64,000 bases of DNA from Protonemura montana. Lineage: Eukaryota > Arthropoda > Insecta > Plecoptera > Nemouridae. The position numbers and the translations under genes were made by a program. The notes under the pieces are model-generated. The model saw nothing but the letters and a program-made list of their open reading frames with translations. It did no database searches and was not told the origin of the DNA. Below, piece by piece: positions 40,401-62,747 of the stretch (the stretch's first letter is position 1; the number at the start of each line of letters is the position of its first letter). The DNA lies in NCBI GenBank assembly GCA_947568835.1, contig OX387603.1, positions 26,870,651-26,934,650 of the forward strand, in the 5' to 3' direction.

Positions 40401-43400
40401 ACGTCATGGAAGAGTTGTCTGCGCGCTGCGTCATGTTTCCACGTGCGCTGCGCAGGACGCTGGCAACCATGTGTGACGTCACACTGCTGCGCTCGCTGCC
40501 CATGGCGCTCATTGCCGCTGCGTTCATGTTTTCCAGCGCGGCCTACTATGTTCCCTTCACGTACCTGCGCCGTGAGTGTCATCACGGGGCTTAGTTGAGT
40601 GCCGTTGAGTGTGCAGGTTCTAGGTAGAGACAGAACGTTAATGTTAAACCGTTGAGTGTGCAGGTTCTAGGTAGAGACAGAACGTTGATGTTAAACCGTT
40701 GAGTGTGCAGGTTCTAGGTAGAGACAGAACGTTAATGTTAAACCGTTGAGTGTGCAGGTTCTAGGTAGAGACAGAACGTTAATGTTAAACCATTGAGTGT
40801 GCAGGTTCTAGGTAGAGACAGAACGTTAATGTTAAACCGTTGAGTGTGCAGGTTCTAGGTAGAGACAGAACGTTGATGTTAAACCGTTGAGTGTGCAGGT
40901 TCTGGGTAGAGGCAGAACGTTGATGTTAAACCGTTGAGTGTGCAGGTTCTAGGTAGAGACAGAACGTTGATGTTAAACCGTTGAGTGTGCAGGTTCTAGG
41001 TAGAGACAGAACGTTAATGTTAAACCGTTGAGTGTGCAGGTTCTAGGTAGAGACAGAACGTTGATGTTAAACCGTTGAGTGTGCAGGTTCTAGGTAGAGA
41101 CAGAACGTTGATGTTAAACCGTTGAGTGTGCAGGTTCTAGGTAGAGACAGAACGTTGATGTTAAACCGTTGAGTGGCAGGTTCTGGGTAGAGGCAAAACG
41201 TTGATGTTAAACCGTTGAGTGTGCAGGATCTAGGTAGAGACAGAACGTTAATGTTAAACCGTTGAGTGTGCAGGTTCTAGGTAGAGACAGAACGTTAATG
41301 TTAAACCGTTGAGTGTGCAGGTTCTAGGTAGAGACAGAAAATTGATGTTAAACCGTTGAGTGTGCAGGTTCTAGGTAGAGACAGAACGTTAATGTTAAAC
41401 CGTTGAGTGTGCAGGTTCTAGGTAGAGACAGAACGTTGATGTTAAACCGTTGAGTGTGCAGGTTCTAGGTAGAGACAGAACGTTAATGTTAAACCGTTGA
41501 GTGTACAGGTTCTAGGTAGAGACAGAACGTGAATGTTAAACCGTTGAGTGTGCAGGTTCTAGGTAGAGACAGAACGTTGATGTTAAACCGTTGAGTGTGC
41601 AGGTTCTAGGTAGAGACAGAACGTTAATGTTGAACCGTTGAGTGTGCAGGTTCTAGGTAGAGACAGAACGTTAATGTTAAACCGTTGAGTGTGCAGGTTC
41701 TAGGTAGAGACAGAACGTTAATGTTAAACCGTTGAGTGTGCAGGTTCTAGGTAGAGACAGAACGTTGATGTTAAACCGTTGAGTGTGCAGGTTCTAGGTA
41801 GAGACAGAACGTTAATGTTGAACCGTTGAGTGTGCAGGTTCTAGGTAGAGACAGAACGTTAATGTTAAACCGTTGAGTGTGCAGGTTCTAGGTAGAGACA
41901 GAACGTTAATGTTAAACCGTTGAGTGTGCAGGTTCTAGGTAGAGACAGAACGTTGATGTTAAACCGTTGAGTGTGCAGGTTCTAGGTAGAGACAGAACGT
42001 TAATGTTAAACCGTTGAGTGTGCAGGTTCTAGGTAGAGACAGAACGTGAATGTTAAACCGTTGAGTGTGCAGGTTCTAGGTAGAGACAGAACGTTGATGT
42101 TAAACCGTTGAGTGTGCAGGTTCTAGGTAGAGGCAGAACGTTAATGTTAAACCGTTGAGTGTGCAGGTTCTAGGTAGAGACAGAACGTTGATGTTAAACC
42201 GTTGAGTGTGCAGGTTCTAGGTAGAGACAGAACGTTAATGTTAAACCGTTGAGTGTGCAGGTTCTAGGTAGAGACAGAACGTTAATGTTGAACCGTTGAG
42301 TGTGCAGGTTCTAGGTAGAGACAGAACGTTAATGTTAAACCGTTGAGTGTGCAGGTTCTAGGTAGAGACAGAACGTTAATGTTAAACCGTTGAGTGTGCA
42401 GGTTCTAGGTAGAGACAGAACGTTAATGTTAAACCGTTGAGTGTGCAGGTTCAAGGTAGAGACAGAACGTTAATGTTACAGTCTCTGCGTGAAAGATGGC
42501 CACCAAATGACTACTTTACCGACAAAAATGCTGAGTACCGGAACACGCCGTTAAGTGGAGCCACTGTCGTATGAAATTTAATTTCGATATTTCTCGTAGG
42601 TTACTCGCTTTTGAATATCGTTACGTGTCTATCAATCGTTGAGGTAAACATCGATGGAGATCTTTTGTTCATGAAAAGTCTCAAAAGCAAAGAAGATTCA
42701 AAGAGTAGAAACTGCAGACCAAAAGAAGATTATACATGTATATATGCATAGCGCTCGGCACCGGGTTTACCCTTGCCTCCCTTGCAGTGCGGGAGCTTTC
42801 GAAGGGCGGCGACGATACAAGGGCGACAATGTTCCTGACTGTAATCAGTCTGTCAGCCATGGCAGGCCGCCTGATCTGCGCAGGCGTCTCCAGCCTGCCC
42901 TGCACCAACCACTTCTATGTCATCAGCGCCACTCAAACAGTCGGCGCGTGCGCAGTGTTCATCTGCGCATTCGACCCGCCGTACGAGGCGCAGATCGCGT
43001 GCTGCGTGTGCTACGGGTTCGCACTGGGTGAGAGGCGTTTCGTCGGCTTTGTTCGCGACCTCGAACGCTTTACCAACCACATGCTGTTGTCTGTCCGGCA
43101 GCGTGCACTTCCAACCTCCGCTCCATCATAATCGTGGACCTCGTAGGACTACACAACCTGACCAACGCCTTCGGTCTCGTGATGCTCTTCCAGGGCGTCG
43201 GTTTCATATCGGGCCCGCCCATTGCAAGTGAGTCACGGAGGCGTTTCACTAGCATGGTCACACTCTGACACCACACTGACGCACGAGTCTCTGTCACAGG
43301 TCTGATCAAGGAGGCTTCCGGCAGCTTTCCGTCTGTCTTTTGGTTCGCTGGCAGCATGATCCTGGCCTCGGCGATGCTCACCTATCCGTTGAACGAGCTG

Positions 43401-43433
43401 AAGAAGCGTCGACCCCGCGGTGACCTGCGATGA
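37448..43433 (+). CDS. MCT-C: SLC16-type monocarboxylate transporter
   Basis: 601-aa carrier. Exons: 37448-37506, 37585-37823, 37898-38041, 38299-38484, 39224-39422, 39497-39691, 40288-40571, 42788-43027, 43102-43227, 43300-43433. The ATG is chosen because it alone gives the phase 2 end that fits exon 2. Family marks: [31 protein letters not shown], helix 8 arginine in [10 protein letters not shown] and [14 protein letters not shown]. The central loop has a cysteine-rich, very basic block ([20 protein letters not shown]) then GVRPFYR and DDIFYEGS. Helix 7 to 8 departs from MCT-B but matches MCT-D closely, so C and D are sister copies. Intron 4 is almost filled by a 5S-like array and intron 7 by the 47-bp satellite, yet the reading frame is intact. 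Confidence 0.92.
38492..39205 (+). repeat. Tandem array of 5S-rRNA-like segments
   Basis: Eight units, each with ACACCGGTCCTCGTGAGATC, ACCGAAGTTAAGCAACACTG and GGATGGGTGACCACC, corresponding roughly to the middle two thirds of 5S rRNA. Unit spacing is about 92 bp with some units near 84 bp, and a three-unit block of about 268 bp is repeated. The 5' and 3' ends of true 5S genes are missing, so these are not 5S genes. The array lies in MCT-C intron 4 and ends about 20 bp before the acceptor at 39223. Confidence 0.9.
40605..42690 (+). mobile_element. Foldback-like element FB47, copy I (40-unit arm)
   Basis: About 40 direct copies of a 47-bp unit (CCGTTGAGTGTGCAGGTTCT, AGGTAGAGACAGAACGTTAA, TGTTAAA) run to about 42479. 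The FB47 core follows directly (CAGTCTCTGCGTGAAAGATG, GGAGCCACTGTCGTATGAAA, AGGTTACTCGCTTTTGAATA). The inverted right arm seen in copy III is absent. Units differ mainly by GTTAATG versus GTTGATG, which suggests recent amplification. It fills MCT-C intron 7. Confidence 0.8.
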
Positions 43434-44295
43434 CCTTTCCCGAGCGTGGCCGACTTTACCCGAGCGGTGCCGATCTGATCCAAGCGGGACCGACCATTCC
43501 CGAGACATGCTAACCGGTCCCGAGCAATACTGTCATGCCGATCTCACCCGAGCGCGACTGAATGAACCCGAGAATAGCCGATCTATTCCGTGCTAGGGCG
43601 ACCAGACACGAGTTTGGCCGAACTGTCACGAAATCTGTCATCTTCTACATCTGCTCGACTTTCGGATTGATCGACTCTGTAGTTGACAATAAAAAGTCTT
43701 GCAGCCTGAAATCAATGTCTTCTCTCTCTCTCTTGCTTTAGCCTGCCTCGTGCTCGACAATCACTCTCCCTCTGAAGTGGTCTCCTAGCAATGACTCTTC
43801 AAGCCTGTCAAACTCTTAGGTACAAATGAAGGGCGACATGACGGGGACGCTGACCTCACGGCACTGCCTTGATTAACGTTTAGTCTTCTATGGGTGACTT
43901 CTGCCAATTTAGGCCGACGATAATCATTGTGAGTGCCATGCTAAGCTGGCAAATCATATTCCACCTTCCGTTCGAATCCTCGACGACCACGTCGCCATTC
44001 TGGCTGACTCGGAGCACGAGGTAGTTCAGTCTTAACCTCACTTCACTGACCCACGTGTTGCACACGCTCGTTCTGCCACTCTTCGTTGCTCTCACGTACA
44101 ATACCTGCATCGTTCTTGTAGCCTCGGTGTTATTTTGACATTTAATACACTGTTATTTCCTTTTCTTTTTGTGAAATAGTGCATGCATGTATCGGAGTAA
44201 ATAAAACTAAAACAATCGGAAATATTGTCGCAAAACGCTGAGTCGCAAAGTTGTCTGATTGTACTTTGTAACTCCAGCTCTGAGCCGACACCCAG
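43434..44295. other. MCT-C 3' UTR and C-D intergenic region
   Basis: The first 200 bp contain a loose, degenerate repeat around CCCGAGCG and GCCGA words spaced roughly 20-30 bp. The rest is unremarkable. The MCT-D ATG directly follows a possible acceptor (CCGACACCCAG). Confidence 0.5.
43688..43693 (+). terminator. MCT-C polyadenylation signal
   Basis: AATAAA (GACAATAAAAAG) 255 bp after the stop. Confidence 0.6.
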
Positions 44296-47124
44296 ATGGA
44301 AACACACGGAGCGGGCACGGTGGTCATGCTCCCAGACGGCGGCTACGGCTGGGTCATCATGATAGTCTCGTTCCTGGCCAACTTCCTGACCGACGGTATC
44401 ATCTCCTCGTGCGGCCAGTTCATGGTGTCGCTCACCAAGGATTTGAAAGCAACTCCTGCCGCCGTCTCGCTGATCGGCTCACTCTTGGTGGGCGTCGCCC
44501 AGCTCGCCGGTACGTACCCCTCGTGTCATGTCAGGTCCTGCTCAGACTCGCCGTGTCATGTGCTCACCCTGCACACCCTGACAGGTCCCCTGGCGAGCGG
44601 GATCTCCAACCGCTACGGCTTCCGGGTTTCGGTCATTGTCGGCAGCCTCATCGCGGCCGCTGGGTTCGCGAGCTCCTACTTTGCCACATCCGTCGACAGT
44701 CTTTACGGGACGTACGGGTTCGTTGGGGGTAGGTAGCAACCCTGCCAGGTGCCAGATGGGTGCTAGGTCCACTGGTATTTTCTCTATAAAGCAGCATCGT
44801 GGCATTTGCATTGGCGAGTCTAGCCTTAGTCATCCTTGAGTGCTGGACAATGGACATGGATAACAACCTTGTGCTGCTGAAGGTTTGGGGGCTGATCTAA
44901 GTGCTCAGCTGATGGCTACCTCGTGCAGACAGTCGGAGGTCACTGAAGACTGATGAAGACCCTGTGGTGCCCTTTAGGCATCGGGTTCGGGCTGGTATAC
45001 GTGCCCAGCGCCCTCGCAGTCAACTTCTGGTTCACGCGTTGGCGGGCTCTGGCCACAGGTGTCGCGCTCGTCGGATACAACGCCGGCGGCGTGGTGCTGC
45101 CCGTGGTGCTGGACTTGTGCATAGAAAGCTACGGATGGCGTATCACCTTCCTCGTAGAAGCAGGTATAGGCTGCCACCGAGGAAAGGTCTAGAAAAAAGC
45201 TAGTAGAAATTAAAAAATATATATACTTAAAACTTTGGGATTCTATTGGCTGAACATTTTGCTACAAATTACGTGCGTTTATAAACTGTATAGACAATAT
45301 CATTGATGAACATGTACCAATATGTATTCTCAACACAAATTCACCTCTGAGCGTAAAATAGTTTAACATTTTAGCATCAAAAACCTGGCGACATTTGGCA
45401 TAAGAACCGCTGTCATATAATTAACTTTCCCGCTAAGATTGGGTTCACTCAGCGGCCGCGGCGAGCAGCACGCATTCAAAGCAACGTCCCCTAGACCTCG
45501 ATGTTAACAACATAAGCATTTCACTCACTAAAGCTTCGTGGCTGAGCTAGCGTCAAATTGAGACCGGTTCGCTCGTTGTCCCACGGGAACAGCGCTGATG
45601 CTGGGTTGCTCGCTGCTGGGCCCGTTCTTCTTGCCCCCTCCGGCGATGACCATCCTCCAGCCCGGCACAGCCGGTGCCAGCCTCACGAGCATGGGTCTGA
45701 GCCTGACTTCACGCATGCGCGTCAAGTCGGGCAACATCCACAACAAGAACTACGCGAGCGTGATGGAGATTATGGGCCCCGAAGAGTCTGTGGGGTCGTT
45801 GCAGTGGGGACCAGCGGGATGGCAGGGGGCCCCGACCCGACCCAAGGGCGAACGCTGCAAAGTCTGCTGCCACAACTTTCTGACATGTCACTGGAAGTGT
45901 AAACGACGTCCTAAGACGCACGGGGTGCGCCCGTTTTACCGGTGGGTGCTAAGCCAAGGATCCCTGCCAAGGGTGCAAAGTCTCCAGCCATTGCCTGACC
46001 TAGTATTTTGTCTCCAGAGACGACATATTCTACGGCGGAAGCACGGTCCGTCTGGAACAATATCAGAGCCACCGAGAGTTCGGTGAAAAGGTGTACAACC
46101 TGAAGGTAAGTGGCGACCTGTTGCGGTTGCGAACCCGGAGCCTCTGAGTGCCTGACTGCCGCGCACGCGTGCTACAGGTGACGCGCGTGGCTTCTCATCG
46201 TGACGTCATGGAGGAGTTGTCCACCCGCTGCGTCATGTTTCCTCACGCACTGCGTAGGACTCTGGTGACAATGTGCGACTTCACTCTGCTGCGTTCACCG
46301 GCCATGGTCTTACAAACCACCTGCTCTCTTGCAGCCGCCACGGCCTTCTACACGCCCTACATATTCTTGCCCGGTACGTTCCTCCACAGCCTTCTTAGCT
46401 CGTGACGACTCTCTTTTGCCCTCGACTAACTTGTGACGTCACCCTCAGCGCGCGGCATCTCGAAGGGTCTGACCTCCATGGATGCCACCCTGTACGTCAC
46501 AACCATCAGCGCCGCGGCGGCCATCGGAAGAATCACCTGCGCTGTCATGGCCAGTCTGCCGTGCTCCAACCACTTCTACCTGCAGAGCGCAGCACAGACT
46601 TTTGGCGGCTGCGCAGTGCTGGCCTGCGGGTTCCCCATACCGTACATTGCGCAGCTTGTTTGCTGCGCGGTATACGGGATGTCGATCGGTGGGTGCTCGT
46701 CGGGGGGGGGGGGGGGGGGGGGCGTTTAGCGTTGCTTGGGACTAACCTCTGTTTGGTCCGCAGCGTTCACGTCCAACCTCCGCTCGATCATCATCGTCGA
46801 CCTGGTCGGACTGCAGAACTTGACCAATGCCTTCGGTCTGCTGCTAATGTTCCAGGGTGTGGGTTACATCGTCGGCCCCCCAATCGCCGGTAAGACACAA
46901 CGCCCCGGTGCTATATAACTCCTGGCCAGGAGTCCCAGGATCGATCCTCCTAGTGCACGTGTCCGTTTACAGGCGTTATACTGGGGGCGACGGACGACAA
47001 CTACGACACGGTGTTCTGGTTCGCCGGCGCCCTGATCCTGGTCTCGGCCGTCTGCTCGTACCCGTTGAACGAGCTTGCAAAGCGCGGCAAGACCCACGAC
47101 ATCGTCAAACAGCGGCGGCGGTGA
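44296..47124 (+). CDS. MCT-D: SLC16-type monocarboxylate transporter
   Basis: 564-aa carrier. Exons: 44296-44509, 44585-44728, 44978-45163, 45593-45941, 46018-46105, 46178-46373, 46449-46688, 46764-46889, 46973-47124. The N-terminus is very short, with [12 protein letters not shown] at about residue 12. Other marks: [19 protein letters not shown], helix 8 arginine in [10 protein letters not shown] and [14 protein letters not shown]. The loop carries a cysteine and basic block ([18 protein letters not shown]), then HGVRPFYR and DDIFYGGS. A 72-bp phase 0 intron (46106-46177) splits the loop after the DDIFY block; no other copy has an intron at this spot, so it looks gained here or lost elsewhere. 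The donor of intron 7 is followed within 13 bases by a 21-G run. Confidence 0.92.
46702..46722 (+). repeat. G21 run just inside an MCT-D intron
   Basis: Begins 13 bases after the donor of the 75-bp intron 7 and is followed by CGTTTAGCG. G-runs near 5' splice sites are known intronic splicing enhancers; use here is inference. Confidence 0.85.
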
Positions 47125-47139
47125 CCTTGCTTACATGCT

Positions 47140-47145
47140 AATAAA
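47140..47145 (+). terminator. MCT-D polyadenylation signal
   Basis: AATAAA 16 bp past the stop, giving a very short 3' UTR. Confidence 0.65.
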
Positions 47146-47402
47146 ACCACTGTCTTAAACAACAACCTTCTTACTTTTTAAACAATCGTGTGAATGTTTG
47201 GCTGGAGTCGAAGCAGTCGCTTGGCAACCAACTGAGTTCGTGGATTTGTGGCCATCAGCTTTACAGCTTCGAGTGTCCACCGCTAGGTGCAATGCGGCCT
47301 GCAGCGACCACCACGTAAGTCCCGGTCTACTGACGTCAGCACGCCTTGAAAGGGGTCGCCGTCTGGGAGGAATATTTTCCCCGCCAATATAAACATGTGC
47401 GC

Positions 47403-50400
47403 ATGTCCAGGCAGCTGCCGACGACACGAGCGCCTGCGCCGACGCGACCTCGGGCCTTGTCGACCGTCACCGAGCCCGGCAGCAACGAGGGGTACATCAC
47501 CTACATAGTGGTGCCCCCCGACGGAGGCTGGGGCTGGGTCATCGTCGTCGCCTCCTTCTTCGCCAACATGCTCGAAGGCGCGGTCATCTACTCGATCGGA
47601 AGTTACACTCAGCCGTTTAGCATGGAGTTCGCTGTAAGCAGCAGTAAAGTTGCTCTCGTTGGCTCACTGCTTTCCGGCTTCCATCAGCTCGTGGGTAAGT
47701 GACGGGTACCTGTGCCTCCAGGACCCCTTGTTAGCACATTTCACCTCGCTGACACTCTGGTGGTCACAGGGCCCCTGGTGAGCGCCATGTCCAACCGCTG
47801 GGGCTTTCGGGTGGTCATGATCGTCGGCTCGATAATCACTGGCATCGGCGTGGGGCTGTGTTTCTTCGCGTCCGAGATGTGGCACATATACCTGCTCTTC
47901 GGCATCATCGCTGGTAACTCGTGACGATACTTTCAGGATAGGAACCCCCTTTTAAAATGGTCGATATCAAACAATTTTAGACTTTTAGTGAAAAGACTGG
48001 AACTCACCCATTTTTATTCGCAGTTTTAGTATCAAAAATACCGTCGCATACGGGAAGGGGACCAGGGCCAACTCACTTGGCTCTGAACGGACTCACCAAT
48101 ATCGTGTGAATGTTGTACAGATGAGAGCAGAGATATTGATTTGAAACCATCTAGTTGCTCTTGTTGTGAGATCGACCACTTGCTGTCAGGCGATGACAAA
48201 AAAATACAAATGACACTTAAAACCTTGCCACCTCCCTCGCTCTAGCTGTGACTCCAACGACGTCGTCTCGCTTGCTTCATGTGTCTTTAACCTCCAAATC
48301 TAGTCTCCTGTAGCACCAGATCGAGGTGTCGTGAGATAATGGCTTTAAGTGACTACCATAGCACCCTACAGCTCACAATGGCAACCTCCCAGACCCGTCC
48401 CTTCAACAAAGTGGCTAGAGATTGCAAGCACCCTTTACCAGGATGTACGTTGGCCTCCTTGCAGGCGCCGGCACGTGCATGATCTACATGCCGGGTGCGG
48501 TGATCGTCAGCTTCTACTTCTTGCGTTGGCGTGCGATAGCCGTGTGCCTGTCATTGTGTGGTGCAGGCGTAGGAGGCGCCTTCTTCCCAATCCTGCTTGA
48601 CGCGTGGATCGCAGCGTATGGCTGGCGCAGCGGGACGCTCTTCGAGGCGGGTATGTGCCGTAGGATGAGGCAAGGAGGGAACGCTCTTTAAGAGGGGGTA
48701 TGTGTTGTGTTAGTGTAGAATATGGACCACATCGCGCTGACGACCCACTGAACGCTTCCAGGGCTGCTGCTGACGGGCGTGTTCGCCGGTCTGCTGTACC
48801 GGCCCATCAAGCCGGTGGCCATCCGGGTAAACGAGACACAAGGCCGCCGAGGCAGCGGGTCCGGACAGATACAACGACGTAGCTTTGTGGCTAATGACAA
48901 GTACCCAACGGCAGCTGAAGCATACTCCGTGAGCCGCGCCACCATCCATTCGCTGCCCCCGGGACGCTCGCAGAGGTAGGTGACGGTGATGTCTTGCCAG
49001 CGGCCCGTGACAGTCGACTAACTGAGTGTTGCCCAGCAGCGCCGGCAGCATAATGATGGTGCCCATGGAGTATTACGACAACCCGATCCGCGACGCGGGC
49101 TCCGAGCAAATCGTGGTGTACGACGCTCCACGTCCATCACACCGACGTTGCCGCGTCTGTTTGGCGCGGTGGTGCTGCTGTCGCAGGAGACAACGCCGAG
49201 GTTTCCTGGGCATCCGCCCCATGTACAGGTCGGTAGAAAGCAAGTAATACTCTCCAGGATGGCTTCCCAAGACAACATCGTAAGACTCGAGGTCGACTTC
49301 CACAGGGACGACATCTTCTACCAAGGCAGCGTCAAGAGCATGCGCTCTCGCATCTCGCGAGCCAGCCTGGCGCCAGGGGCGGGCACGGGGTCGGGGACGG
49401 CGACGGCAACGGTGGGGGCAGCGGAGTACGCGATGACGGTGAGCCGGCTGCCGACGGCGCGCGACGTCGAGCAAGAGGAGTCAGCGAAATGCTTCGTCTG
49501 TCCCGAAGCCGTGACCCGTATCCTGGCAACCATGTTGGACTGCTCGCTGCTTCGGTCGCCTTCCTTCCTGGTCCTGACATTGCAGGGGTGTCTGATGCAG
49601 AGCGTGATACTCATTCCGTTCATATACTCACAGGGTATGTTGGTAACCCTGAACCAAACTTTTAACACAGTGTGTTAAAGCGACGAGGCTAAGCGGTGAC
49701 CGGTCCTTGGTGCTGCTGGACAGGAGCAGCCAATACAGTGTGTCAAAGTGACAAGGCTAAGCGGTGGCCGGTCCTTGGTGCTGTTGGACAGGAGCAGCCA
49801 ATACAGTGTGTCAAAGTGACAAAGCTAAGCGGTGGCCGGTCCTTGGTGCTGTTGGACAGGAGCAGCCAATACAGTTTGTCAAAGTGACAAGGCTAAGCGG
49901 TGGCCGGTCCTTGGTGCTGTTGGACAGGAGCAGCCAATACAGTGTGTCAAAGGGACAAGGCTAAGCGGTGGCCGGTCCTTGGTGCTGTTGGACAGGAGCA
50001 GCCAATACAGTGTGTCAAAGTGACAAGGCTAAGCGGTGGCCGGTCCTTGGTGCTGTTGGATAGAAGCAGCCAATACAGTGTGTCAAAGTGACAAGGCTAA
50101 GCGGTGGCCGGTCCTTGGTGCTGTTGGACAGGAGCAGCCAACACAGTGTGTCAAAGGGACAAGGCTAAACGGTGGCCGGTCCTTGGTGCTGTTGGACAGG
50201 AGCAGCCAACACAGTGTGACAAAGTGACAAGGCTAAGCGGTGGCCGGTCCTTGGTGCTGTTGGACAGGAGCAGCCAACACAGTGTGTCAAAGGGACAAGG
50301 CTAAACGGTGGCCGGTCCTTGGTGCTGTTGGACAGGAGCAGCCAACACAGTGTGTCAAAGTGACAAGGCTAAGCGGTGGCCGGTCCTTGGTGCTGTTGGA

Positions 50401-51339: not shown

Positions 51340-51361
51340 CCGAATTGTTGCCAAGCGATCG

Positions 51362-51367
51362 AATAAA
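51362..51367 (+). terminator. MCT-E polyadenylation signal
   Basis: AATAAA 23 bp past the stop and only 163 bp before the MCT-F ATG. Confidence 0.65.
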
Positions 51368-51529: not shown

Positions 51530-53685
51530 ATGCCACCGCCGACGGCGTCCTCACGCGCCGCCAACTTTGAGGTTGATGCTGATGGTTTGGTAACTACCTA
51601 CGTCACTGTCCCGCCAGACGGCGGCTGGGGCTGGGTGGTGCTGGTCACAGCCTTCTACGTACAGATGCTATTCGGTGCCACCATCTTTGCCGTTAGCAGC
51701 CTCGTAGAGGCCGTGGCAGCCGACTTCCACTCTACCATGGGCCACGCGTCGGTGTACAGCGCGCTCTTCGGCGGCTGCTCGCTGTGTGTCGGTGAGTCCC
51801 AGAAGACTTGACGGCAGGATGACACCAAGATTGTTTAACGCCAACCTCTCGCAACAGGCCCCCTGGTCAGCGTCATGGCACACAAGTATGGCTTCCGTAC
51901 CGTCACCTCCATCGGCACCGTCGTCGGCACCTTCGGCTTCGTCGGCGCGTTCTACGCAGACTCCCTGCCGGTGCTCATTTTCTCGTTCGGTTTTCTTGGA
52001 GGTATTCGGAGATGTCCGGCAAGCTTCGTGACAGCTTGCAAGAGCTGTTTTCTTTACGATATTTCCTATGCAGGTGTCGGCTTCGGCATGCTGTTCGTGC
52101 CTTCTATATTAGTGGCAGCGTTATACTTTGAGCGATGGCGGGCGTTGGTCCAGGGAATCACCGTGTGCGGCTCAAGTGTAGGGGGAGCCATCGCCCCGCC
52201 TCTCGTGACCTTGGCTGTCGACAGGCTGGGCTGGCGATACACTATCCTCATTGAAGCCGGTAAATCGCCTCCACTCCCTAGTCAGTAGGTTACACTATGA
52301 TTTCCTAGCCTCACAATTACAATAAAGTAAGAAAATCAAGTTAAACCACAATAGAATAATGAAATAAATAGACAATTTCTATTAGAGAATATCTTTCTTG
52401 CGGTCAAGGATTATATGCGAGTTTTCTGACCAGTACTTAGCTTAGCAATGTGACGGTTCTAATAGAAAATGCACGTCTAGTTTGATATATTAAAACCGAT
52501 ATTGCAAACTTTATGTCTGCAGGAATGCTGCTAAGCTGTGGCCTGGCCAGCCTGTTGTACCTACCATTGACCCCGGTAATGAAACGCGTCACGCCGGCCG
52601 AGCTGACCGACGCCATGCAAGCGAGGGCGTCGCGGACACACCTCGCTCGCCTCCGTTGCGATTGCTCTCTGTGTAAATCGCCGTCCTACCTGCTGTTCGG
52701 CGTGTGCTGCATGCTGTGCATGGCAGCCACCTTGGTGCCTTTCGTCTACCTGCCCGGTACGTTGTAACGCATAACCAGGCTCAAAGGGGACTCCGACAAG
52801 TGAAGCCGTGCAGGGACACCTGCTCAACGCTCCCCAAAGAATTGATAGATCGCGGTCCTCCTCGAGTGCATCAAAGTAGGGACATGCCAGTGGATGGGAG
52901 AAAGAGACTCTGACACCTGAACTCGCACACCTCTCTGCCACAGATCGATCGCACTCGCTAGGGGTAGAGGCGTCGACGGTGGAGCTGCTGATCCCTGTGT
53001 CGAACATCGTCTCGACCCTGGGGCGATTAGTGTGCGGGGTGCTGGCCTCCAGTCCGCGCCCCGTCGCGATGCCCATCTTCGGCGCGACTATCTTCGCGGC
53101 TGGCGCAGCGCTCTGTTTTAGCGGCCTCAGCGCAGACTCGACCTTTCAAATCACGTGCGTCGTGCTCTTCGGCCTCTTCATGGGTGAGCCTCCTTGGCCT
53201 GACATCGGCCTGACTTCCTTCCCATGAGCATGAAGGCGAAGCCTTTGCTTGCAGCGTCCTTCAACGCGCTTCGAGTGGTGATCCTCGTGGAGTTGGTCGG
53301 CTTGGAACGCCTCACGACGGCCTTCGGGTACCTGCTGTTCACCCAGGGGCTCAGCGTCATGGCCGGTCCGCCGCTAGCAGGTAACCACGTGGCAACCTGT
53401 CGGGCGTACCACAAACTACATCGGGTATCCTTGCATGGCCATGAGTCAACAAGCTGGCGCCCTTACAACATCTTGCAGGTCGCCATGGTAACCCGTCCTC
53501 GTCTTGCAGGTCAACTGAAGGAGGCGACGGGAAACTATGACTCGGTGTTCTGGTTCGCTGGCAGTTTGTTGCTGGTTGCCTCAATGGTCGTCGTACCTTT
53601 GCCCAGCATCAGCCACTGGGAGAAAAAGCGCGACAAACGCCGATCAGCGGCGCGTGAATCGCCCCAAGTGAGACCAATCCAGTGA
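51530..53685 (+). CDS. MCT-F: short-loop SLC16-type transporter
   Basis: 455-aa carrier in seven exons: 51530-51791, 51858-52001, 52074-52259, 52523-52756, 52944-53183, 53255-53380, 53510-53685. VPPDGGWGWVVLV begins at about residue 27. Other marks: AHKYGFR, LYFERWRALVQG, helix 8 arginine in TLGRLVCG and VELVGLERLTTAFG. A single 234-bp exon replaces the loop exons of the other genes, so the cysteine-rich and RP-YR-DDIFY blocks are missing and the loop is only about 40 residues. It is closest to MCT-G (shared VDADGLVTTYV before helix 1, shared exon plan). The last codons and stop lie in a 28-bp tandem repeat. Confidence 0.92.
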
Positions 53686-53737
53686 ATCGCCCCAAGTGAG
53701 CCTAGTCCAGTGAATCGCCCCAAGTGAGCCCAGTCCG
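53654..53737 (+). repeat. Three 28-bp repeats across the MCT-F stop codon
   Basis: Three units start GTGAATCGCCCCAAGTGAG. The first codes the last residues (ESPQVRPIQ); the TGA stop is created by the start of the second unit. Confidence 0.9.
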
Positions 53738-53834
53738 GTGCAACGCTTCCATGGAACGCCATCGCACTGTCGCTGACATCGCCTGTCATTGTAGACTTTA
53801 TGCCAGAGAGTGTTTGTTGGTTGCTAGGAGACCG

Positions 53835-53840
53835 AATAAA
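53835..53840 (+). terminator. MCT-F polyadenylation signal
   Basis: AATAAA (ACCGAATAAACGG) 150 bp after the stop and 200 bp before MCT-G. Confidence 0.55.
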
Positions 53841-54039
53841 CGGCGTGATCGCGAACATGTGCTTTGCTTGCTTTGTTTCTTGCTCATTGAGGAACCCCAC
53901 CACCAGTCAGCGCCACCTACCGGCGTCCCAACACGAGTCCCGTGGATCCCCAGCTCTCAGGTACATCCGATCCAAACGCCATCCCCTCCGTGGCTGGACG
54001 CCGACGTCACGACGCTGAGCGGCGTGGTTGTCGCAGAGG

Positions 54040-57000
54040 ATGGCGTCAACGGCGCCCATGGTGGTGGATGCCGACGGGCTGGTCACTACCTATGTGAAGG
54101 TTCCTCCCGATGGAGGCTGGGGTTGGATCGTCTTGCTCGCTGCGTTCCTTGTGCAAGTCCAGTTTGGCGCTACAATGCTGGTGGTCAGCAGCCTCGTGGA
54201 AGCCGTGGCAGATGACTTCCAAGTGACCATGAGCGAGGCTTCGTTGTTTACCTCGCTGTTTGGAGGCTGTGCCTACTGCATCGGTGAGATCTCTGTGTTG
54301 TGGGGGGGGGGGGGGGGGGCGTTTCACACTACGTCTACTGATCGGTGCTCTGAAATCTGATTTAATTTGCAAGCGCTTGCAATGCGCAAAGTATTTTATT
54401 ACTAGGAGCACTAATAACCTCTCAAAAATTGACGCAACGGGGACTCGAACGCCGATCGCATAACGCGGCCTACCAATTGAGCAATTTGGAGAGAGGGTTT
54501 TAGTGAATTTCATAAGAATGACGGATCGCCGAGGAGTAGAACCACGAGGCTGTGATTGCTCAGCATTTCGACACCAATCCTTTAGAGGTTATAAGTGTTC
54601 CAAATTTTAGAAATATATTTGCACGCTCCCCCAGGTCCCGTGGTCAGCGCCATGGCACATAAGTATGGCTTCCGCACCGCCACCTCGATCGGCACCGTCA
54701 TCGGCGTCATCGGCTTCGTCGCCGCCTCCTACGCCAACAACCTGACGGTGCTTGTCGTCACGTACGGCGTGGTTGGAGGTGAGAAAACGCCCCTCGTGTA
54801 GGCGCCCGTTTGACTTTCGGACCACCCTCTGTCCCCTGTGTCGTACAGGAGTCGGCTTCGGCATGCTGTTCGTGCCTTCCATCATAGTGCCAGTGTTCTA
54901 CTTTCAACGATGGCGCGCGTTGGTCCAGGGCATCACCGTGTGCGGCACTAGCGTCGGGGGTACCGTCGCACCCCCTCTGTTCGGTCTTGCAGTCAACCAT
55001 CTCGGTTGGCGGTACACCATCCTCATCGAAGCAGGTACGAACGCTTCCTCCAGTGACAAGAATCTAAAGCGGATCGCTGGGGCAACCTATGCTGTGAGAA
55101 TTGAAACAACGGTCGATCATTTAAGGGCATATAAATCATTGAATAGGATACCGTGGTATAGTCCACCCCCTTGTGGCGATTTTAAATTAGTCATTTCACT
55201 GTGAAGTGATTACAAAAGCGCGCTTTTCTCTGACATACACCAATGAAAGAGCATGAAAGGAAATCCACGGCCCCCTTCTGCATGTCAAGTGGATTCCAGT
55301 CTTGTTTATGTCCCTTCAAGGAATGATACTGAGCTGTGGATTGATAAGCCTGCTCTACGTTCCCCTTACACCCGTCGCAAAGAGGGTCACACCAGCCGAG
55401 CTGGCAGTCGCCATTCGAAGCGGGGCGTCGAGTTCGCACCGTGCCAGCTCCCAGTGCATCGCATCTCTGTTTCACTCGCCGTCGTACCTCATGTTCGGCG
55501 TCAACGGCATCTTCGCTATGACGTGTCTTATGGTGCCCTTCGTCTATTGGCCCGGTGAGCGTGACCCTCCTCCCAACCTCTACTCACAGTCATCGATTCG
55601 CCCCTCACTGACTTTCCAACGCCCACAGACCGTTCCCAGAAGATAGGCGTTGACGATACGACCGCTGAGTGGCTGGTGTCGTGCTGTAACTTAGCTAGCC
55701 TGTTTGGCCGCTTGGCTTGCGGGGTGCTGGCTACTTACCCGCACCCCGTGGCGCTACCTATCTTCAACGTCACGCTCGTCGCCGCTGGATTGGCGTTATG
55801 CCTCAGCTTCCTGTCCACTTACCCGGCATTCCAGTTCACAGTCGCGGTGTGCTACGGACTGCACCAAGGTAACTTCCGTTGCGTGCTACCGTTAAGTGTA
55901 CAGGTTCTAGGTAGAGACAGAACGTTAATGTTAAACCATTGAGTGTGCAGGTTCTAGGTAGAGACAGAATGTTAATGTTACAGTTTCTTCGTGAAAGATG
56001 GCAGCCAAATGACTATACTTTACCGACAAAAATGCAGAGTACCAGAACACCCCGTTAAGTGGAGCCATTGTCGTATGAAATTTAATTTCGATATTTCTCG
56101 TAGGTTACTCGCTTTTGAGACTTTTCATGCTCAAATGATCTTCATAAATGTCTACCTCAACGATTGATATTCACGTAACGATATTCAAAAGCGAGTAACT
56201 TACCATCTTTCAAACATAGAACCTAGAACCTGCACACTCAACGGTTTAACATCAACGTTCTGTCTCTACCTAGAACCTGCACACTCAACGGTTTAACATT
56301 AACGTTCTGTCTCTACCTAGAACCTGCACACTCAACGGCTTAACATCAACGTTCTGCCTCCACCTAGAACCTGCACACTCAACGGTTTAACATTAACGTT
56401 CTGCCTCTACCTAGAACCTGCACACTCAACGGTTTAACATTAACGTTATGCATCTACCTAGAACATGCACACTCAACGGCTTAACATCAACGTTCTGCCT
56501 CCACCTATAACCTGCACACTCAACGGCTTAACATCAACGTTCTGCCTCCACCTATAACCTGCACACTCAACGGCTTAACATCAACGTTCTGCCTCTACCT
56601 AGAACCTGCACACTCAACGGTTTAACATTAACGTTCTGTCTCTACCTATAACCTGCACACTCAACGGTTTAACATTAACGTTCTGCCTCCACCTAGAACC
56701 TGCACACTCAACGGTTTAACATTAAAGTTCTGCCTCCACCTAGAACCTGCACACTCAACGGTTTAATATTAACGTTCTGTCTCTACCTAGAACCTGCACA
56801 CTCAACGGTTTAACATTAACGTTCTGTCTCTACCTAGAACCTGCACACTCAACGGTTTAACATTAACGTTCTGTCTCTACCTAGAACCTGCACACTCAAC
56901 GGCTTAACATCAACGTTCTGCCTCAACCTATAACCTGCACACTCAACGGCTTAACATCAACGTTCTGTCTCTACCTAGAACCTGCACACTCAACGGTTTA

Positions 57001-57422
57001 ACATTAAAGTTCTGCCTCCACCTGTAACCTGCACACACTTTGCATGTGGGTGTCAACATGAGTTGTGTCTTGCAGCCTCATTCAACGCACTCCGCGCTGT
57101 GATCCTGGTGGAACTGATTGGCCTGGAACGCCTGACCTACGCTGTCGGCTTTCTGCTCTTCTCGCAAGGCATCAGCATCATGATCGGCCCACCATTGGCC
57201 GGTGAGCTCTCGACAATGCGCTGACCTCCGTCGCATGTTCTCGACGGAGATGCTAAACTGGTCGGCATTGCAGGTCAGCTGATGATTCTGACGGCAGACT
57301 ACAATTCGGTGTTCTGGTTTGCCGGCGGCCTGCTGCTGGTGGGGTCTTTGTTCGTGCTGCCGCTGTCATGTGTCAACCGCTGGGAGAAACGCCGAGCTGA
57401 ACGCCTCGGCGACGTCTGGTGA
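54040..57422 (+). CDS. MCT-G: short-loop SLC16-type transporter
   Basis: 440-aa carrier with the same seven-exon plan as MCT-F: 54040-54283, 54635-54778, 54849-55034, 55321-55554, 55629-55868, 57076-57201, 57274-57422. VPPDGGWGWIVLL begins at about residue 22; other marks are AHKYGFR, FYFQRWRALVQG, helix 8 arginine in SLFGRLACG and VELIGLERLTYAVG. As in F, the long loop is absent. Codons differ from F at many third positions while residues agree, so the duplication is not very recent. The ATG lies just after a possible acceptor (GTTGTCGCAG). Intron 1 carries an 18-G run and a tRNA-type SINE; intron 5 carries an FB47 element. Confidence 0.92.
54302..54319 (+). repeat. G18 run just inside MCT-G intron 1
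   Basis: Eighteen G residues 18 bases after the donor, followed by CGTTTCAC. The same intron ends in CACGCTCCCCCAG, which is complementary with one mismatch or bulge. Confidence 0.85.
54358..54562 (-). repeat. tRNA-derived SINE, copy 1 (minus strand)
   Basis: On the minus strand, TTGCTCAATTGGTAGG (box A-like) and GGCGTTCGAGTCC (box B) lie at tRNA spacing, preceded by GTGGTTCTACTCCTCGGCGA and followed by CAATTTTTGAG. The copy at 58236-58600 shares all of these. Not an intact tRNA. Confidence 0.7.
55893..57030 (+). mobile_element. Foldback-like element FB47, copy II
   Basis: Two direct 47-bp units on the left, the core at about 55978-56215 (CGACAAAAATGCAGAGTACC, then an inverted GCGAGTAACTTACC), and about 17 units in inverted orientation on the right (AACCTGCACACTCAACGG, TTTAACATTAACGTTCTG). 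It shows the arm-core-inverted arm plan with arms of 2 and 17 units. It lies in MCT-G intron 5. Confidence 0.8.
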
Positions 57423-57457
57423 CGCCCTCCTCTCGCTGTTCCTCCACTTTAAGAGAC

Positions 57458-57463
57458 AATAAA
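57458..57463 (+). terminator. MCT-G polyadenylation signal
   Basis: AATAAA (GACAATAAAAATG) 36 bp after the stop. Confidence 0.65.
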
Positions 57464-57486
57464 AATGTTGCGAACATCTTTTTGAT

Positions 57487-57765
57487 GGTTTTTAGACTCA
57501 TGTCTACTTGATTTATCCTTAGCACTAGTTTTACAAAAACTATTTCAACTGGGTTTTGAAAGCTTAGTAAAGAACAACTAAATTTGCCGACGTTTCGTAA
57601 CATGTACAAGTTACTTCTTCAAGGGTTGGAGCAGTTCTCTAACCCTTGACTGCTCTTACGCTTGAAGAAGTAACTAGTACATGTTACAAAATGTTGGGAA
57701 ATTTAGTTGTTCTTCACTTAGCATTCAAGACCCAGTTGAAATAGTTTTTGTTGATGCAAACATCT
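57487..57765 (+). repeat. Foldback repeat FBt, copy 2
   Basis: Starts TTTTTAGACTCATGTCTACTTG. The left arm contains AAGAACAACTAAATTTGCCG, GTAACATGTACAAGTTACTT and CTTCAAGGG; the right arm carries the reverse complements, ending AACTATTTCAACTG inverted. It sits between MCT-G and MCT-H. Confidence 0.75.
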
Positions 57766-57877
57766 GATATTACAAAGTTGGTGTTTGTTGCTTGTTGTGT
57801 TGTCAATGTCTTGGCGTTGCCGGGGAAACTAAACACGTGGAGCAAGTTTGCTGGGGACTGCGTCACGCTCTAGAGCC

Positions 57878-60800
57878 ATGACTTCGAGGAACCAGCCTCA
57901 GCCGAAGAAGCCGTGAGTCTTTTAATAGCTTTATTCGGGGCACAACGAACCTTGTCTTGATTCCTTGTCGCTCGTGGACTCGAGGTCTGGTTTGCTACGC
58001 TTGTCCCGAATTGTGATTGGTTTTAGACTCATGTCTACTTGATTTATCCTTAGCACTAGTTTTAACAAAAACTATTTGAAATGGGTTTAGAATGCTAAGT
58101 AAAGAACAACTAAATTTCCCGACGTTTCGTAACTTGTACCTGTTACTTCTTCAAGGGTAAGAGCAGTCCTGATAATTTTCCGATAACAAAATAACCACAC
58201 AAAATTATAACAATTACCAAGAATGACAGTTCAGTTGTAGTGTTGTTAATAATAAAATACCCCGCGCATTGCAAGCGTTTGCAATTTAAATAAGATTTCA
58301 TCCTAATACAGCAACGAATCCAAAGTCAAATTGGAGTTACTCGAGTTTGACAGGTTGTGACGTGATATAGCGTCACTAGAATCAGAGTGACTGTGAGTAT
58401 TCACAGCCTCTTGGTTCTACTCCTTGGAGATCCGTCATTCTCATCAAATACACTAAAATCGTCTCAAAAAGCCAGTGTTCAAGTAGCTCAATGGTTCAGA
58501 GCAACACCCGCGACAGGTGGAGATCGGGGTTCGAGTCCTTGTTTGGGCATCAATTTTTGAGACGGTTATAGTGTTGTTAATAATAAAACACTAACGTATT
58601 TTGTATTGTCTGCAAAAAAATCCCGAACTAATGGAACAAATGTATTATGTGTATCCCGAATTTTAGCTACAACCGAGTTCTTTACATCCCTGTGAGGTAG
58701 GCTTTTTGTAGAGCATAATTGCGTCGCGTGCGGCCTATAACTAGGTGTTTATAGGGGCGTATGCAGCGACAACTTCAGGCTGGTCCTGCTTGGTGGCTAG
58801 GAATGGGGAAATTTTAAGTCCAATAAACCAGGGAAGGTATACGGGTGCTTGGAGAGGGGTAAAGATCAAGAAATGGTCACAGAATTAGTTCGACGCTAGA
58901 GACTGTCTCGGCTTCCAGAACGGAGGACGACGCCCAGGTTACGACCCACATCGTGGTCCCCCCCGACGGCGGCTGGGGCTGGGTGGTCATGACCTCGGCC
59001 TTCCTGTGCAACCTCGTCTGCGACGGCGTTATCTACAACTTCGGCGGCATCTACATGAAACCCATGACCGAGGAGTTTAACGCTTCGCCCGCTAGTGTCG
59101 CGCTCGTCGGCTCACTGCTGCAGGCGTCGACGCAGTTCATCGGTCAGTACCGAAAATTGTTGGGTACGCTCTCAATTGAATTCAGGTGCTGTTCTAGATC
59201 GTGTGTTTTCTTTGGGGGGGGGGGGGGGGGGGGGGGGGGGAGGAAGCCGTGCCAAAAGGCAAAAAACATTGAAACAATTTCTATTCTCTCGTTATGCTTT
59301 GTCGGCGCTGCCTGACTTGCCTGAGCTCAGCCTTGCTATCGCTTTACGTAGCCTTAATAACGAGCTAGTGTATTTGGCATATATTTTTCAGAATGTTAAG
59401 ATTTTGTGAATATACCATACGTTCTGCTAAATGCCATTTCCAAATAAAATGTTCACCAACACGTAAAAGTAACATGTGTTTCTTGAATTTAAATGTAGAG
59501 CAGACCAAACTTTTCCCGGAATAAGTGATCGACGTACACTTTTGCAAGAAAAGGTGGGTCACGGCGCGTACGTAACCACCGGTCAGAATCAATGGGGTCG
59601 TGGTTGCGGGGTGAAAATAAACCCACACCCACCCACCCACAGCCCCTTGGACACGCCCACAATATGCGCGTGTCTCTGTGCGCAGGTCCCGTGGCCAGCG
59701 CATTGGTCAACCGGCACGCGTTCCCCAAGGTGCTCATGTTCGGCACGATCCTATCGGCCGTGGGTTTCGTCCTTTCATACTACGCCACCTCCGTCACGTT
59801 CCTCTGCATCACGTTCGGCGTCCTAGCAGGTACCCGTCAGCCCACAGCGCCTCAAGCGGTCACATCTACAAACTCTTCAACGACCATCTTCCTTGCAGGC
59901 AGCGGATTCGGCATCGCATTCGTCGTCTCCACCATCGTCATCAGCTTCTACTTCCAGCGCTGGAGGTCGATCGCCACGTGCTTCGCTCTGTGCGGCTCCA
60001 CTGTCGGCGGCATGGTCGGAGGACCAGTTCTTCAGTACATTGTCAACCGCTACGACTGGCGCACGGCCATATTGGCGCAGGCAGGTAGGCCCAGGTGCTG
60101 GCAGCAATAACGCAAGATCGAAGAGCCTCGTGGCAAAAAGGTGTCTAAGCCTTAGTTCCCTTGTCCCTCGTAGTCGCCATCGGGCTGTGCACGTTCCTGG
60201 GCCTCACGTACCGACCGCTGAAGCCCGTTCAGGTGCACAGGCAGACCGACGCCTCTGTCGGCGTCTCTCAGATGTCGCTCGTGAGCATCGGTGTGAGCGG
60301 CGGACCTGGGCGACTAGGTCCGAAGAACCACGAGTACCCGACAGCGGCGCAAGTCGTCCTCAGCGAGACGACGCTGACCGTGCTTGGGACCACAGCGCAC
60401 GGCTCCCGTGGTAAGTACATAGACAGAGCACGCCATTAGGCAACCAAGCCGTAGTAACGTTGAGTGTAGGTTATAGGTAGAGTTTCAACGTCAATGTTAC
60501 AGTCTCTGCGTGAAAGATGGCCGCCAAATGACTACCTTACCGACAAAAATGCAGAGTACCGGAACGTCACGTTAAGTGGAGCCACTGTCGTATGGAATTT
60601 AATTTCAATATTTATCGTAGGTTACTCGCTTTTTAATATCGTTACGTGTATATCAATCGTTGAGGTAAACATTGATGGAGATTTTTTGAGCATGAAAAGT
60701 CTCAAAAGCGAGTTAACCTACGAGAAATATCGAAATTAAAATTCATACGACAGTGGCTCCACTTAGCGTGATGTTCCGGTACTCTGCATTTTTGCCGGTA

Positions 60801-62747
60801 AGGTAGTCATTTGGCGGCCATCTTTCACGCAGAGACTGTAACATTGACGTTGTTTCTCTACCTAGAACCTACACTCAACGGTTGTAACGCCTCTTATCGT
60901 CACAGAGTCGCTCGTTTCGACGGCGCATTGGACTTCGCGCGGCGGTTCTATGACAAGTGTGCGCGTGGTGGCCGGCCACCACCTGGACATGCACCACCTG
61001 ATGACGGGACGCCGACAACGCTGGTGGCGCTGTTGGAGTTGCAGGGGCGTGCGTTGGTGCGGCAAGAAACGGGAGCACGACCTCGGGGCAAGACCCCTCT
61101 ACAGGTGCGTGTCGTCACCCTGGGCTCGTTCTCTCAGCCAAGTGCCGTTAAACACACTATTTGTTTATTTATGATGTTTAACGACGCACTGTTTTGACAT
61201 CTGGCCATGCGGCACTGGTGTAAAGGCGTTGGTGAATGAGTGGATGATGATGAACCTAATCTAGCCTAGAAGGGAGGAGGGGAAACCCGGTGCCAGCACG
61301 TAGCCTACTCCTGTCGAAGAGCACCAAGGGGACCACCGGCTTAACGTCCCTTCCAAAGGACGGTACAACTCAAACAGCAGGATTCCTCCACAAATCCATG
61401 CTGTCGAGAGGTTGATAAGCCAGGCGAGTGAAGTTGCTGTACTAGCTTTCATCCCTCCAACCTCTCTACCGAAGATTTAACACAATAATTTGGGCCCCAA
61501 AGGGACGACATCTTCTACGGCGAGAGTGTGACGCGGCTCCCGCAGTACACGAACGGTGGTCACATGGGGTACAACATGGCGGTGTCGAGGGTAGCCACGC
61601 GCCGCGACGTCGAACAGGAGCGATCGCGGCGGTGCTTTGTTTGTCCCGAGTCCGTCAGGCGTACGCTCAGGACAATGCTGGACATCTCGCTGTTCCGATC
61701 ACCATCGTTCATGCTCTACGCCGTGGTCAACGGGCTCATGCAGTTTGCCCTCCTTGTACCCTTCGTGTTCATGCCTGGTACGTCATCAAGTGGCTCTCTT
61801 GAGACTAACAAGGTTAAGCAACATTTCGCCAGGTCAGGCATTGGATGGGTGACCAGTCCAAAGTTTGGCGTGTTGGAAACACCGGTCTTCGTGAGACCAC
61901 CGAAGTTAAGCAACACTGCGCTGGGTCAGGCATTGGATGGGTGACCAGTCCAAAGTTTGGCGTGTTGGAAACACCGGTCTTCGTGAGATCACCGAAGTTA
62001 AGCAACACTGCGCTGGACCAGGTATTGGATGGGTATAATGAACAATTCCTCGCTGCAGACCGCGCCAGACTCCTAGGGCTGTCGCCGGACACGGTGTCGC
62101 TGCTGGTGCCGATGATGTCTCTGTCAGGCTTCGTGGCCCGACTGACACTCGGCGTGGCCACCAGCTTCCCACGCGTGCCCCTGATTGCCGTCAGCTACAC
62201 GGTGCTGTCGCTAGGAGGGGTTGCCGTCATGCTCATGGGCTACACCACCACGGCCTGGGCCCAGCTCACGTGCTGCGCAGTCTTCGGCGTCACCCTGGGT
62301 ATGTAAACATGGGCATACCACGCTGCGTTTAGTTCTGACCACGGTTCCGTTGCACTGCCATCGGCAGGTTTTCCACGTTCACTGCCTTCTAAACGCCTCT
62401 CTGTCGCAGCCACCTTCTACAGCTTCCGCGCACTCTTATTGGTGCAGCTGTTAGGTCTAAACAAGCTCACCAACGCGTTCGGTCTGTTGCTGCTCATCTC
62501 GGGGTGTTTTTCCGTCCTCGGTGCGCCGGTCTCCGGCAAGTACCCCCACTTCTAAAGTCCGCTAAACGCTTCCCCAAAGACAGCCGCTGAGTGCATGATA
62601 TTTGCAGGCTTGGTGAAGGAAATCACCGACAGCTACGATTCCGTATTCTACCTGTCGGGGGCGTTGGTCACGCTCAGTGGGCTGCTCATGTTGCCGATGG
62701 AGAGAATCAATCGCCGCGAGAAGGCCGCGACGGGGCAACTGATTTAG
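57878..62747 (+). CDS. MCT-H: SLC16-type transporter with a GC-AG intron
   Basis: 601-aa carrier. Exons: 57878-57912, 58919-59142, 59686-59829, 59899-60084, 60174-60410, 60906-61104, 61503-61777, 62059-62298, 62410-62535, 62608-62747. The first exon (MTSRNQPQPKKP) is chosen because its phase 2 donor restores the frame into TEDDAQVTTHIV. VPPDGGWGWVVM begins at about residue 25. Helix 8 keeps the arginine (FVARLTLG), and VQLLGLNKLTNAFG precedes helix 11. The loop has a tryptophan-, cysteine- and arginine-rich block (RRQRWWRCWSCRGVRWCGKK), then ARPLYR and DDIFYGES. Intron 9 uses a GC donor (CCG then GCAAGT), the only non-GT donor in the cluster. It is closest in layout to MCT-B and carries six different repeats in its introns. 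Confidence 0.9.
58021..58170 (+). repeat. Foldback repeat FBt, copy 3 (half)
   Basis: Left arm only: TTTAGACTCATGTCTACTTG, AACTATTTGAAATGGGTTTA, AAGAACAACTAAATTTCCCG, TTACTTCTTCAAGGG. The inverted arm is missing. In MCT-H intron 1. Confidence 0.75.
58236..58600 (+). repeat. tRNA-derived SINE, copy 2
   Basis: Contains CACAGCCTCTTGGTTCTACT, then TAGCTCAATGGTTCAGAGCA (box A) and GGGGTTCGAGTCC (box B), then CAATTTTTGAGACGG. AATAATAAAA motifs flank it. Stems and the U33 position are degenerate, so it is a SINE head rather than a tRNA gene. Confidence 0.7.
59150..59580 (+). repeat. Interspersed repeat R450, copy 2
   Basis: Second copy of the 3.8 kb repeat, in MCT-H intron 2, with an internal G27 run at 59214-59240 where copy 1 has only CTTGGGGGAGGAAGG. 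The G-run is therefore an expansion within a shared repeat. Confidence 0.75.
60455..60885 (+). mobile_element. Foldback-like element FB47, copy III (single-unit arms)
   Basis: A near-complete palindrome: left arm from GTTGAGTGTAGGTTATAGGT through CAGTCTCTGCGTGAAAGATG to AGGTTACTCGC, a loop of about 90 bp, then the inverted arm ending CTACCTAGAACCTACACTCA. Each arm ends in just one 47-bp-type unit, so this shows the unexpanded form of the element. It lies in MCT-H intron 5 and ends about 20 bp before the acceptor. Confidence 0.85.
61155..61480 (-). repeat. 5S-headed SINE body and tail (minus strand)
   Basis: Reverse complement of the SINE tail (GTTTAACGACGCA) and body (AGCACCAAGGGGACCACCGG, ATTCCTCCACAAATCCATGC), ending ATCCCTCCAACCTCTC. 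It lacks the 5S head. It occupies most of MCT-H intron 6. Confidence 0.8.
61805..62035 (+). repeat. Three 5S-like units in MCT-H intron 7
   Basis: Three copies about 92 bp apart of the 5S-derived unit (AGGTTAAGCAACATTTCGCC in the first, ACCGAAGTTAAGCAACACTG in the others, with GGATGGGTGACCAG). They fill almost the whole 281-bp intron. Confidence 0.9.

Follow-up and report, generated by a model that had tools for sequence, protein, structure and literature searches.

Galileo, a Drosophila transposon of the P superfamily, combines a P-type THAP transposase with foldback-like TIRs that contain tandem repeats in some copies, and these properties are shared by the system described here. Its target duplications are mostly of 7 bp, with the consensus GTANTAC or GTATTAC according to the accessible text of PMC4168063, and chimeric copies with non-matching 7-bp flanks are reported in the accessible part of PMC3573991. 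In Tetris of Drosophila virilis, the repeats of the foldback TIR (TIR-220) give rise to satellite arrays, as in the present case. The accessible part of its description (PMC4079207) places a 220-bp unit inside the terminal flanking domain, reports duplications of 8-10 bp, and presents the element as apparently non-autonomous, with its transposase unnamed. Double insertion of the P element (McGurk and Barbash 2018) is known to leave back-to-back elements whose junction has the size and the motif of the target duplication (accessible parts of PMC9659126 and PMC12628747). Finally, the P-MITEs of Anopheles gambiae have ends in common with resident P transposase elements and produce 8-bp duplications (accessible part of PMC1562414).

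The element investigated here was found in a window of 64,000 nucleotides from the plecopteran Protonemura montana (contig OX387603.1, positions 26,870,651 to 26,934,650 of the forward strand). It is 423 bp long and its target, GTWNWAC, is similar to the GTANTAC of Galileo. In the F group of Galileo from D. mojavensis the tandem units are internal and measure about 210 bp, whereas here the repeat comprises the outermost 47 bp of the element and keeps phase with its end. Galileo was characterised in D. willistoni from 191 copies; exact patterns detect here about 1,600 MITE arms. The monomer of the P double insertion is the whole element, as opposed to 40 bp of terminus followed by a 7-mer in the present arrays, and terminal tandem arrays, which the accessible part of PMC1562414 does not describe for the Anopheles P-MITEs, are present here. 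Foldback repeats giving rise to satellites (Tetris), tandem TIR repeats (Galileo), P-MITEs and P double insertions are thus already known. The new part is a terminal 47-bp unit carrying a target, in a genome that also harbours a related transposase element. A satellite unit that combines the end of a transposon with its target 7-mer was unreported in the literature searched, which excludes most subscription papers and was accessible in part.

Copies of the element and identity of the repeated unit

The original prediction described one core present in three copies, with arms of 40+0, 2+17 and 1+1 units, and a unit scan of the window agrees with these numbers at each place. The unexpanded copy (60458-60880, ends CGTTGAG...CTCAACG, 1+1 units) is an intact palindrome, identified by genome search, folding and alignment. 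It forms a long hairpin whose arms, aligned over 176 bp, show 164 identities, 11 mismatches and 2 gaps; its folding energy of -197.7 kcal/mol (z -34) was reached by none of 100 shuffled sequences. It is flanked on the forward strand by the 7-mers GTAGTAA (60451-60457) and GTTGTAA (60881-60887), which pair at 6 of 7 positions. The two other copies are incomplete. At 40.6 kb, 40 forward units (40603-42474) lie on one side and none on the other; each consists of 40 bp and GTTAAAC or a variant, GTTACAG follows the last unit, and the array so delimited spans 40603-42481. Its last unit provides the first 40 bp of the left half of a core (42435-42688, forward strand, 90% identical to 60458-60880); the core breaks off in the loop, leaving half an element. 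At 55.9 kb, the left arm (55890-55983) holds two forward units (55890-55976), and its outer 7-mer is GTGCTAC. The core of this copy (55939-56206, 89% identical to the unexpanded element) has lost most of its right arm, and 17 reverse-strand units follow at 56251-57042, the 17th and outermost being degenerate, without a clean end. TRF finds 47-bp repeats of 40.0, 2.0 and 17.4 copies in these arrays, and an intact duplication pair is seen in neither of the two array-bearing copies of the window. Inverted repeats make up nearly the whole element, as in foldback transposons, and tandem repeats occur in a minority of arms.

All three copies sit between splice-like signals, judged by eye. A Pfam search of eight ORFs of the gene cluster matched MFS_1 below the cut-off in two and gave nothing in the remaining six; the host genes look like MFS-transporter genes. 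The introns of one cluster named in the original prediction are a local sample of a genome-wide family, and an expansion restricted to one gene cluster was rejected on the basis of the copies found elsewhere. The same window contains two arrays of a 41-bp unit (9248-10934 and 17075-17910), in opposite orientation and 6 kb apart, whose TRF consensus units are reverse-complement rotations of each other and which are possibly another foldback-derived minisatellite. TRF also detects tandem repeats of 91-92 bp at 6891-7132, 33171-33358, 38515-39208 and 61813-62034, in which a stretch like GTTAAGCAACACTGCGCTGGGTCAGGTATTGGATGGGTGACC presumably resembles part of 5S rRNA, and long G runs are present at 2018-2105 (88 bases) and 59214-59240 (27 bases).

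A DNA search with the unexpanded element returned 2,346 candidates, of which 40 were scored; the 39 besides the query itself are 96-99% identical to it. Exact patterns, which exclude mismatched copies, were then counted over the whole genome, with reversed patterns as a control that gave 0 in every case. A commoner subfamily was represented by 1,496 arms ending ...GTTACAGTCTCTGCG, a divergent one by 110 arms ending ...TTAAACTTTCTGCG, and 7,798 unit junctions were found, which at 47 bp each amount to about 0.37 Mb. Arms joined to units are present on multiple chromosomes. The 7-mer TTAAACC precedes 116 of the 1,496 arms of the commoner subfamily; among 17 such loci fetched, some of the plain ones picked deliberately from chromosome interiors, at least two units were present in an arm in 12 and five were plain. 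Plain copies at TTAAAC-type targets are L089, L099, L100, L101 and L102. Among the matches listed, 94 of the 116 arms were tallied (6 rows on C13 and C14 being left out) and 80 of these lie less than 3 Mb from a chromosome end. On C1, none of 12 TTAAACC-preceded arms is interior, versus 35 of 88 other arms (P=0.004, among the first 100 of the 1,496 arms listed). A skew of array-type arms towards chromosome ends is suggestive, the arms of one copy being non-independent. Two further loci, L005 (C15:4065784) and L006 (C15:4056109), are separated by 9.7 kb; their scores are identical and their arms are laid out in the same way, down to another unit downstream, which suggests a segmental duplication.

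The satellite unit had been equated with the terminus of the unexpanded element. The two indeed match at 40/45 bases for the right end and 37/45 for the left, plus one 2-bp gap, and the right-end alignment score of 32 compares with a maximum of 5 among 2,000 random 45-mers from window positions 1-39000. The divergent subfamily allows this identity to be refined. Its 110 arms read CGTTGAG...GTTAAAC, then TTTCTGCG; in five rows, among 100 matches listed, the start of the arm equals the majority unit of the arrays, and L051 and L104 have single-unit arms with GTTAAAC at bases 41-47. This reading of the arms equates the unit with bases 1-47 of the divergent subfamily: it begins at the terminal base of the element, exactly where the repeat junction falls, and closes with the 7-mer GTTAAAC. 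The commoner subfamily carries GTTACAG at bases 41-47, as do most innermost array units. The divergent subfamily is probably the older, to judge from the sequences of L051 and L061, only 88% like the 60.5-kb copy. Nineteen arrays have four or more full-length units, and 14 of them share one identical 40-bp majority unit, which fits a single origin followed by spread or exchange. Array-specific homogenisation was considered and found to be weak, identity being 0.953 within arrays and 0.945 between them (label difference 0.0118, the largest value among 500 shuffles being 0.0056).

P-type partner and target duplications

A partner transposase with matching ends, proposed as a check in the original prediction, was sought with the PF21787 profile. 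This search produced 138 matches. Nine fall in open frames of 1,019-1,072 aa and score nearly alike, and two of the four P-type loci fetched (L079, L080, L081 and L082) belong to this group. L081 is complete: it measures 4,961 bp, starts with CGTTGAGTGTGCATATAGG... at both ends and is flanked by an exact duplication, GTACTAC. Its ends form an 83-bp inverted match of 91.6%, 7 flanking bases included. The 1,070-aa ORF contains THAP, PF21787, PF21788, PF21789 and PF12017 domains and matches the solved P transposase PDB 6p5a (E=9.7e-34), so that the THAP, P-type RNase H and GTP-binding insertion domains of the P superfamily are found together with related ends. Indeed, its terminal 59 bp are 86% (5', E=8.7e-15) and 81% (3', E=1.9e-10) identical to the MITE. 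L080 is 99.7% identical to L081 over 4,345 bp, its 3' end not being found within the fetched stretch. L079 and L082 were rejected as partners, being without the MITE terminus; L082 does match MITE bases 71-87 (17 bp, E=6e-4). Members of one P-type transposase family, nearly equal in score in the PF21787 search, lie less than about 115 kb from chromosome ends (C2:113569, C13:106551, C14:13045332, C15:12877876, C11:18766656, C12:95768 and C16:83519). On sequence grounds, the foldback element is identified as a non-autonomous P-superfamily MITE.

The flanks of the MITE copies agree with this classification. Collapsing identical cores left 64 copies; both ends were readable in 55, including five that adjoin arrays, and nine were dropped. 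The flanks match exactly over 7 bp in 16 of the 55 copies and with at most one mismatch in 34, whereas at lengths of 5, 6, 8 and 9 a match was found in 0 of 55. The duplications are therefore of the 7-8 bp characteristic of the P superfamily. When the five array-adjacent copies are left out, the flanks agree at 6-7 of 7 positions in 32 of the 50 single-unit copies (random pairs: 3.1%) and at no more than 5 in the remaining 18. Imperfect duplications are frequent (34/50 inexact), yet most of the single-unit copies have 94-98% identity to the query, three of the 55 standing at 87-89%. Flank mismatch looks higher than expected for the age of the copies; one possibility is that imperfect pairs could stem from exchange between copies, by analogy with what was proposed for chimeric Galileo.

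The target matrix derived from the flank pairs, symmetrised over both strands, reads GTWNWAC and is, in this symmetrised form, palindromic like the GTANTAC of Galileo. The 7-mer that closes the satellite unit is an excellent target on this scale. With a matrix from 40 pairs, those with GTTAAAC or its complement being left out, the score of GTTAAAC is equalled by 0.06% of the 7-mers of window positions 1-40000, compared with 0.85% for GTTACAG, its counterpart in the commoner subfamily. The satellite unit is therefore a terminus ending in a target-grade 7-mer.

Probable movement and origin of the arrays

At least two units in an arm were found in 22 copies (L025, L051, L056, L059, L061, L083, L085-L088, L090-L098, L107 and two in the window). 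Target duplications, which the original prediction proposed to compare, could be scored outside the arrays in 11 of them, the rest running off the fetched stretch, being without a second arm or having damaged ends. These 11 copies carry 1+9, 12+1, 7+1, 8+9, 5+5, 21+1, 4+1, 3+2, 2+2, 11+1 and 11+5 units. The outer 7-mers match at 6-7 of 7 positions in eight: 7/7 in L051, L085 and L090, and 6/7 in L056, L061, L087, L097 and L098. They do not in L093 (5/7), L025 (4/7) and L094 (3/7). Against the 3.1% of random pairs, the binomial probability of this result is 1.3e-10, for loci that were not randomly drawn. CTTTTAG, for example, stands on both sides of the 7+1 units of L090, and GTTAAAC on both outer sides of the divergent-type copy L085 (12+1 units). 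In five of the eight matching copies (L051, L056, L061, L090 and L098), GTTAAAC is on neither flank, in either strand; their GTTAAAC junctions must then have been made elsewhere, and the arrays either entered together with the element or were converted from another copy. The right flanks of L087 and L097, read from the arm, are GTTAAAC and may be array remnants. Taken together, the matching 7-mers outside the arrays, five of eight without GTTAAAC, suggest that the arrays most likely moved together with the element; the alternative is that copies already present received them later by conversion.

Target duplications can also be re-used. A search for back-to-back ends separated by one 7-bp spacer gave 14 matches at about 12 places (control 0); three of the 14 correspond to one short local repeat, and ten places were inspected. 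In L104, two elements alternate with three identical 7-mers (CTACCAC-E-CTACCAC-E-CTACCAC), and L084 has the same arrangement with one mismatch. In L083, L106, L107, L109 and L110 one partner is reduced to some 8-23 bp of its terminus, and in L103, L105 and L108 the far end of one partner was undetected at the inspected place. L106 (96-130 and 541-575) reads GTACTAC-8 bp-GTACTAC-element-GTACTAC-8 bp-GTACTAT, its 8-bp remnants resembling excision footprints. In L096 (1-550), a 28-bp minisatellite of 19.6 copies spans the border between flank and element; its unit joins flanking sequence to the 7-mer GTACCAT and to element bases 1-12, and the minisatellite directly abuts the 47-bp array.

The reading favoured here, which is judged quite probable, is that a P-superfamily foldback MITE underwent a founder duplication at a GTTAAAC target and that its arrays spread with it. 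The family, the partner, the identity of the unit, the target-grade junction, the outer 7-mers and the re-use of duplications are observed; the founder event and the spread would be their history. By the simplest route, an element would have inserted at GTTAAAC, bases 41-47 of another copy. Such a self-insertion accounts jointly for the period, the phase and the 7-mer. The resulting 2+1 composite, with CGTTGAG...CTCAACG as outer ends, could then transpose as one element, unequal exchange among units would lengthen or shorten the arrays to give the arms of 1 to 40 units seen in the inspected copies, and half-elements would be the plain minisatellites of today. A pattern for a standing nested insertion at bases 41-47, allowing at most 2 mismatches, gave 0 matches, with a rough expectation well below one.

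The period, the phase and the 7-mer are also explained if a flanking GTTAAAC duplication exchanged or slipped with the internal GTTAAAC at bases 41-47 of one element of the divergent subfamily, without nesting, and the product then spread. This route is considered less likely than not. GTTAAAC stands on both sides of L085, and on both sides of the plain copy L102, so such insertions do occur; the 7-mer and 8-bp terminus repeated on either side of L106 and the minisatellite that crosses the border in L096 also speak for it. This route does, however, require an insertion at GTTAAAC, a motif that accounts, on either strand, for only 3 of the 100 7-mers flanking the 50 single-unit copies. Moreover, L085 and L102 come from a sample biased by TTAAAC patterns, and L102 belongs to the subfamily whose internal 7-mer is GTTACAG. 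When 190 arm ends were scanned for a terminal fragment plus a repeated 7-mer, 16 were flagged (shuffled fragments: 0-1 per run in 20 runs), namely 12 array units that passed the filter, two in L106 and two, in L105 and L108, that are seemingly incidental. Short same-direction tandems of remnant and duplication were rejected as a common precursor, with 1 exact match and no evident duplication, for a pattern that misses the L106 remnant, which has a mismatch.

A stronger form of the nested-insertion reading, in which the transposase itself builds the minisatellite, is a tentative proposal. With a near-optimal target 40 bp from its own end, each unit would be a potential end as well as a landing site, and self-insertion with duplication re-use would add end-plus-target units, making the array self-extending and mobile. 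The CTCAACGGTTARACCGTTGAG pattern for insertion within arrays gave 4 matches at 3 places, none of which is a clean mid-array insertion.

As has been proposed for Galileo and Tetris, arrays might instead be kept since every unit adds a binding site for the transposase, which seems improbable. The tandem TIR repeats of Galileo contain THAP sites (accessible part of PMC3688188), and the end of the element is present in every unit. The block best conserved with L081, TCTCTGCGTGAAAG, is nevertheless mostly outside the unit, and falls within the range of the P-element THAP sites, bp 41-63, reported in the accessible part of the same source. In addition, most arms are unexpanded, TTAAACC preceding 116 of 1,496, some of those plain. 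Ectopic conversion that copied arrays into resident elements without any transposition deserves as little credence. Many copies here are chimeric, with flanks that do not match, exchange could equally yield the majority unit shared by 14 of 19 arrays, and conversion into resident copies would likewise leave local 7-mers outside the arrays; conversion alone, however, leaves the origin and the terminal phase of the unit unexplained, and array-specific homogenisation is weak. The chance meeting of an unrelated core and satellite, which would have undone the original prediction, has next to no probability and was rejected, since unit-joined arms recur across chromosomes, the unit is the first 47 bp of one subfamily and control counts are 0.

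The route from foldback transposon to minisatellite put forward in the original prediction is thus supported by the recurrence of unit-joined arms, by the agreement of outer 7-mers in most scored copies and by the P-superfamily partner with matching ends, and a comparable one is already in print (accessible part of PMC4079207). The series from 1+1 to 40 units in the inspected copies, accompanied by a related transposase element, makes the step from transposon end to minisatellite readable locus by locus, genome-wide. With its start at the terminal base and its end in a target-grade 7-mer, the unit points to transposition, and not to random slippage, as the birth event of these minisatellites.
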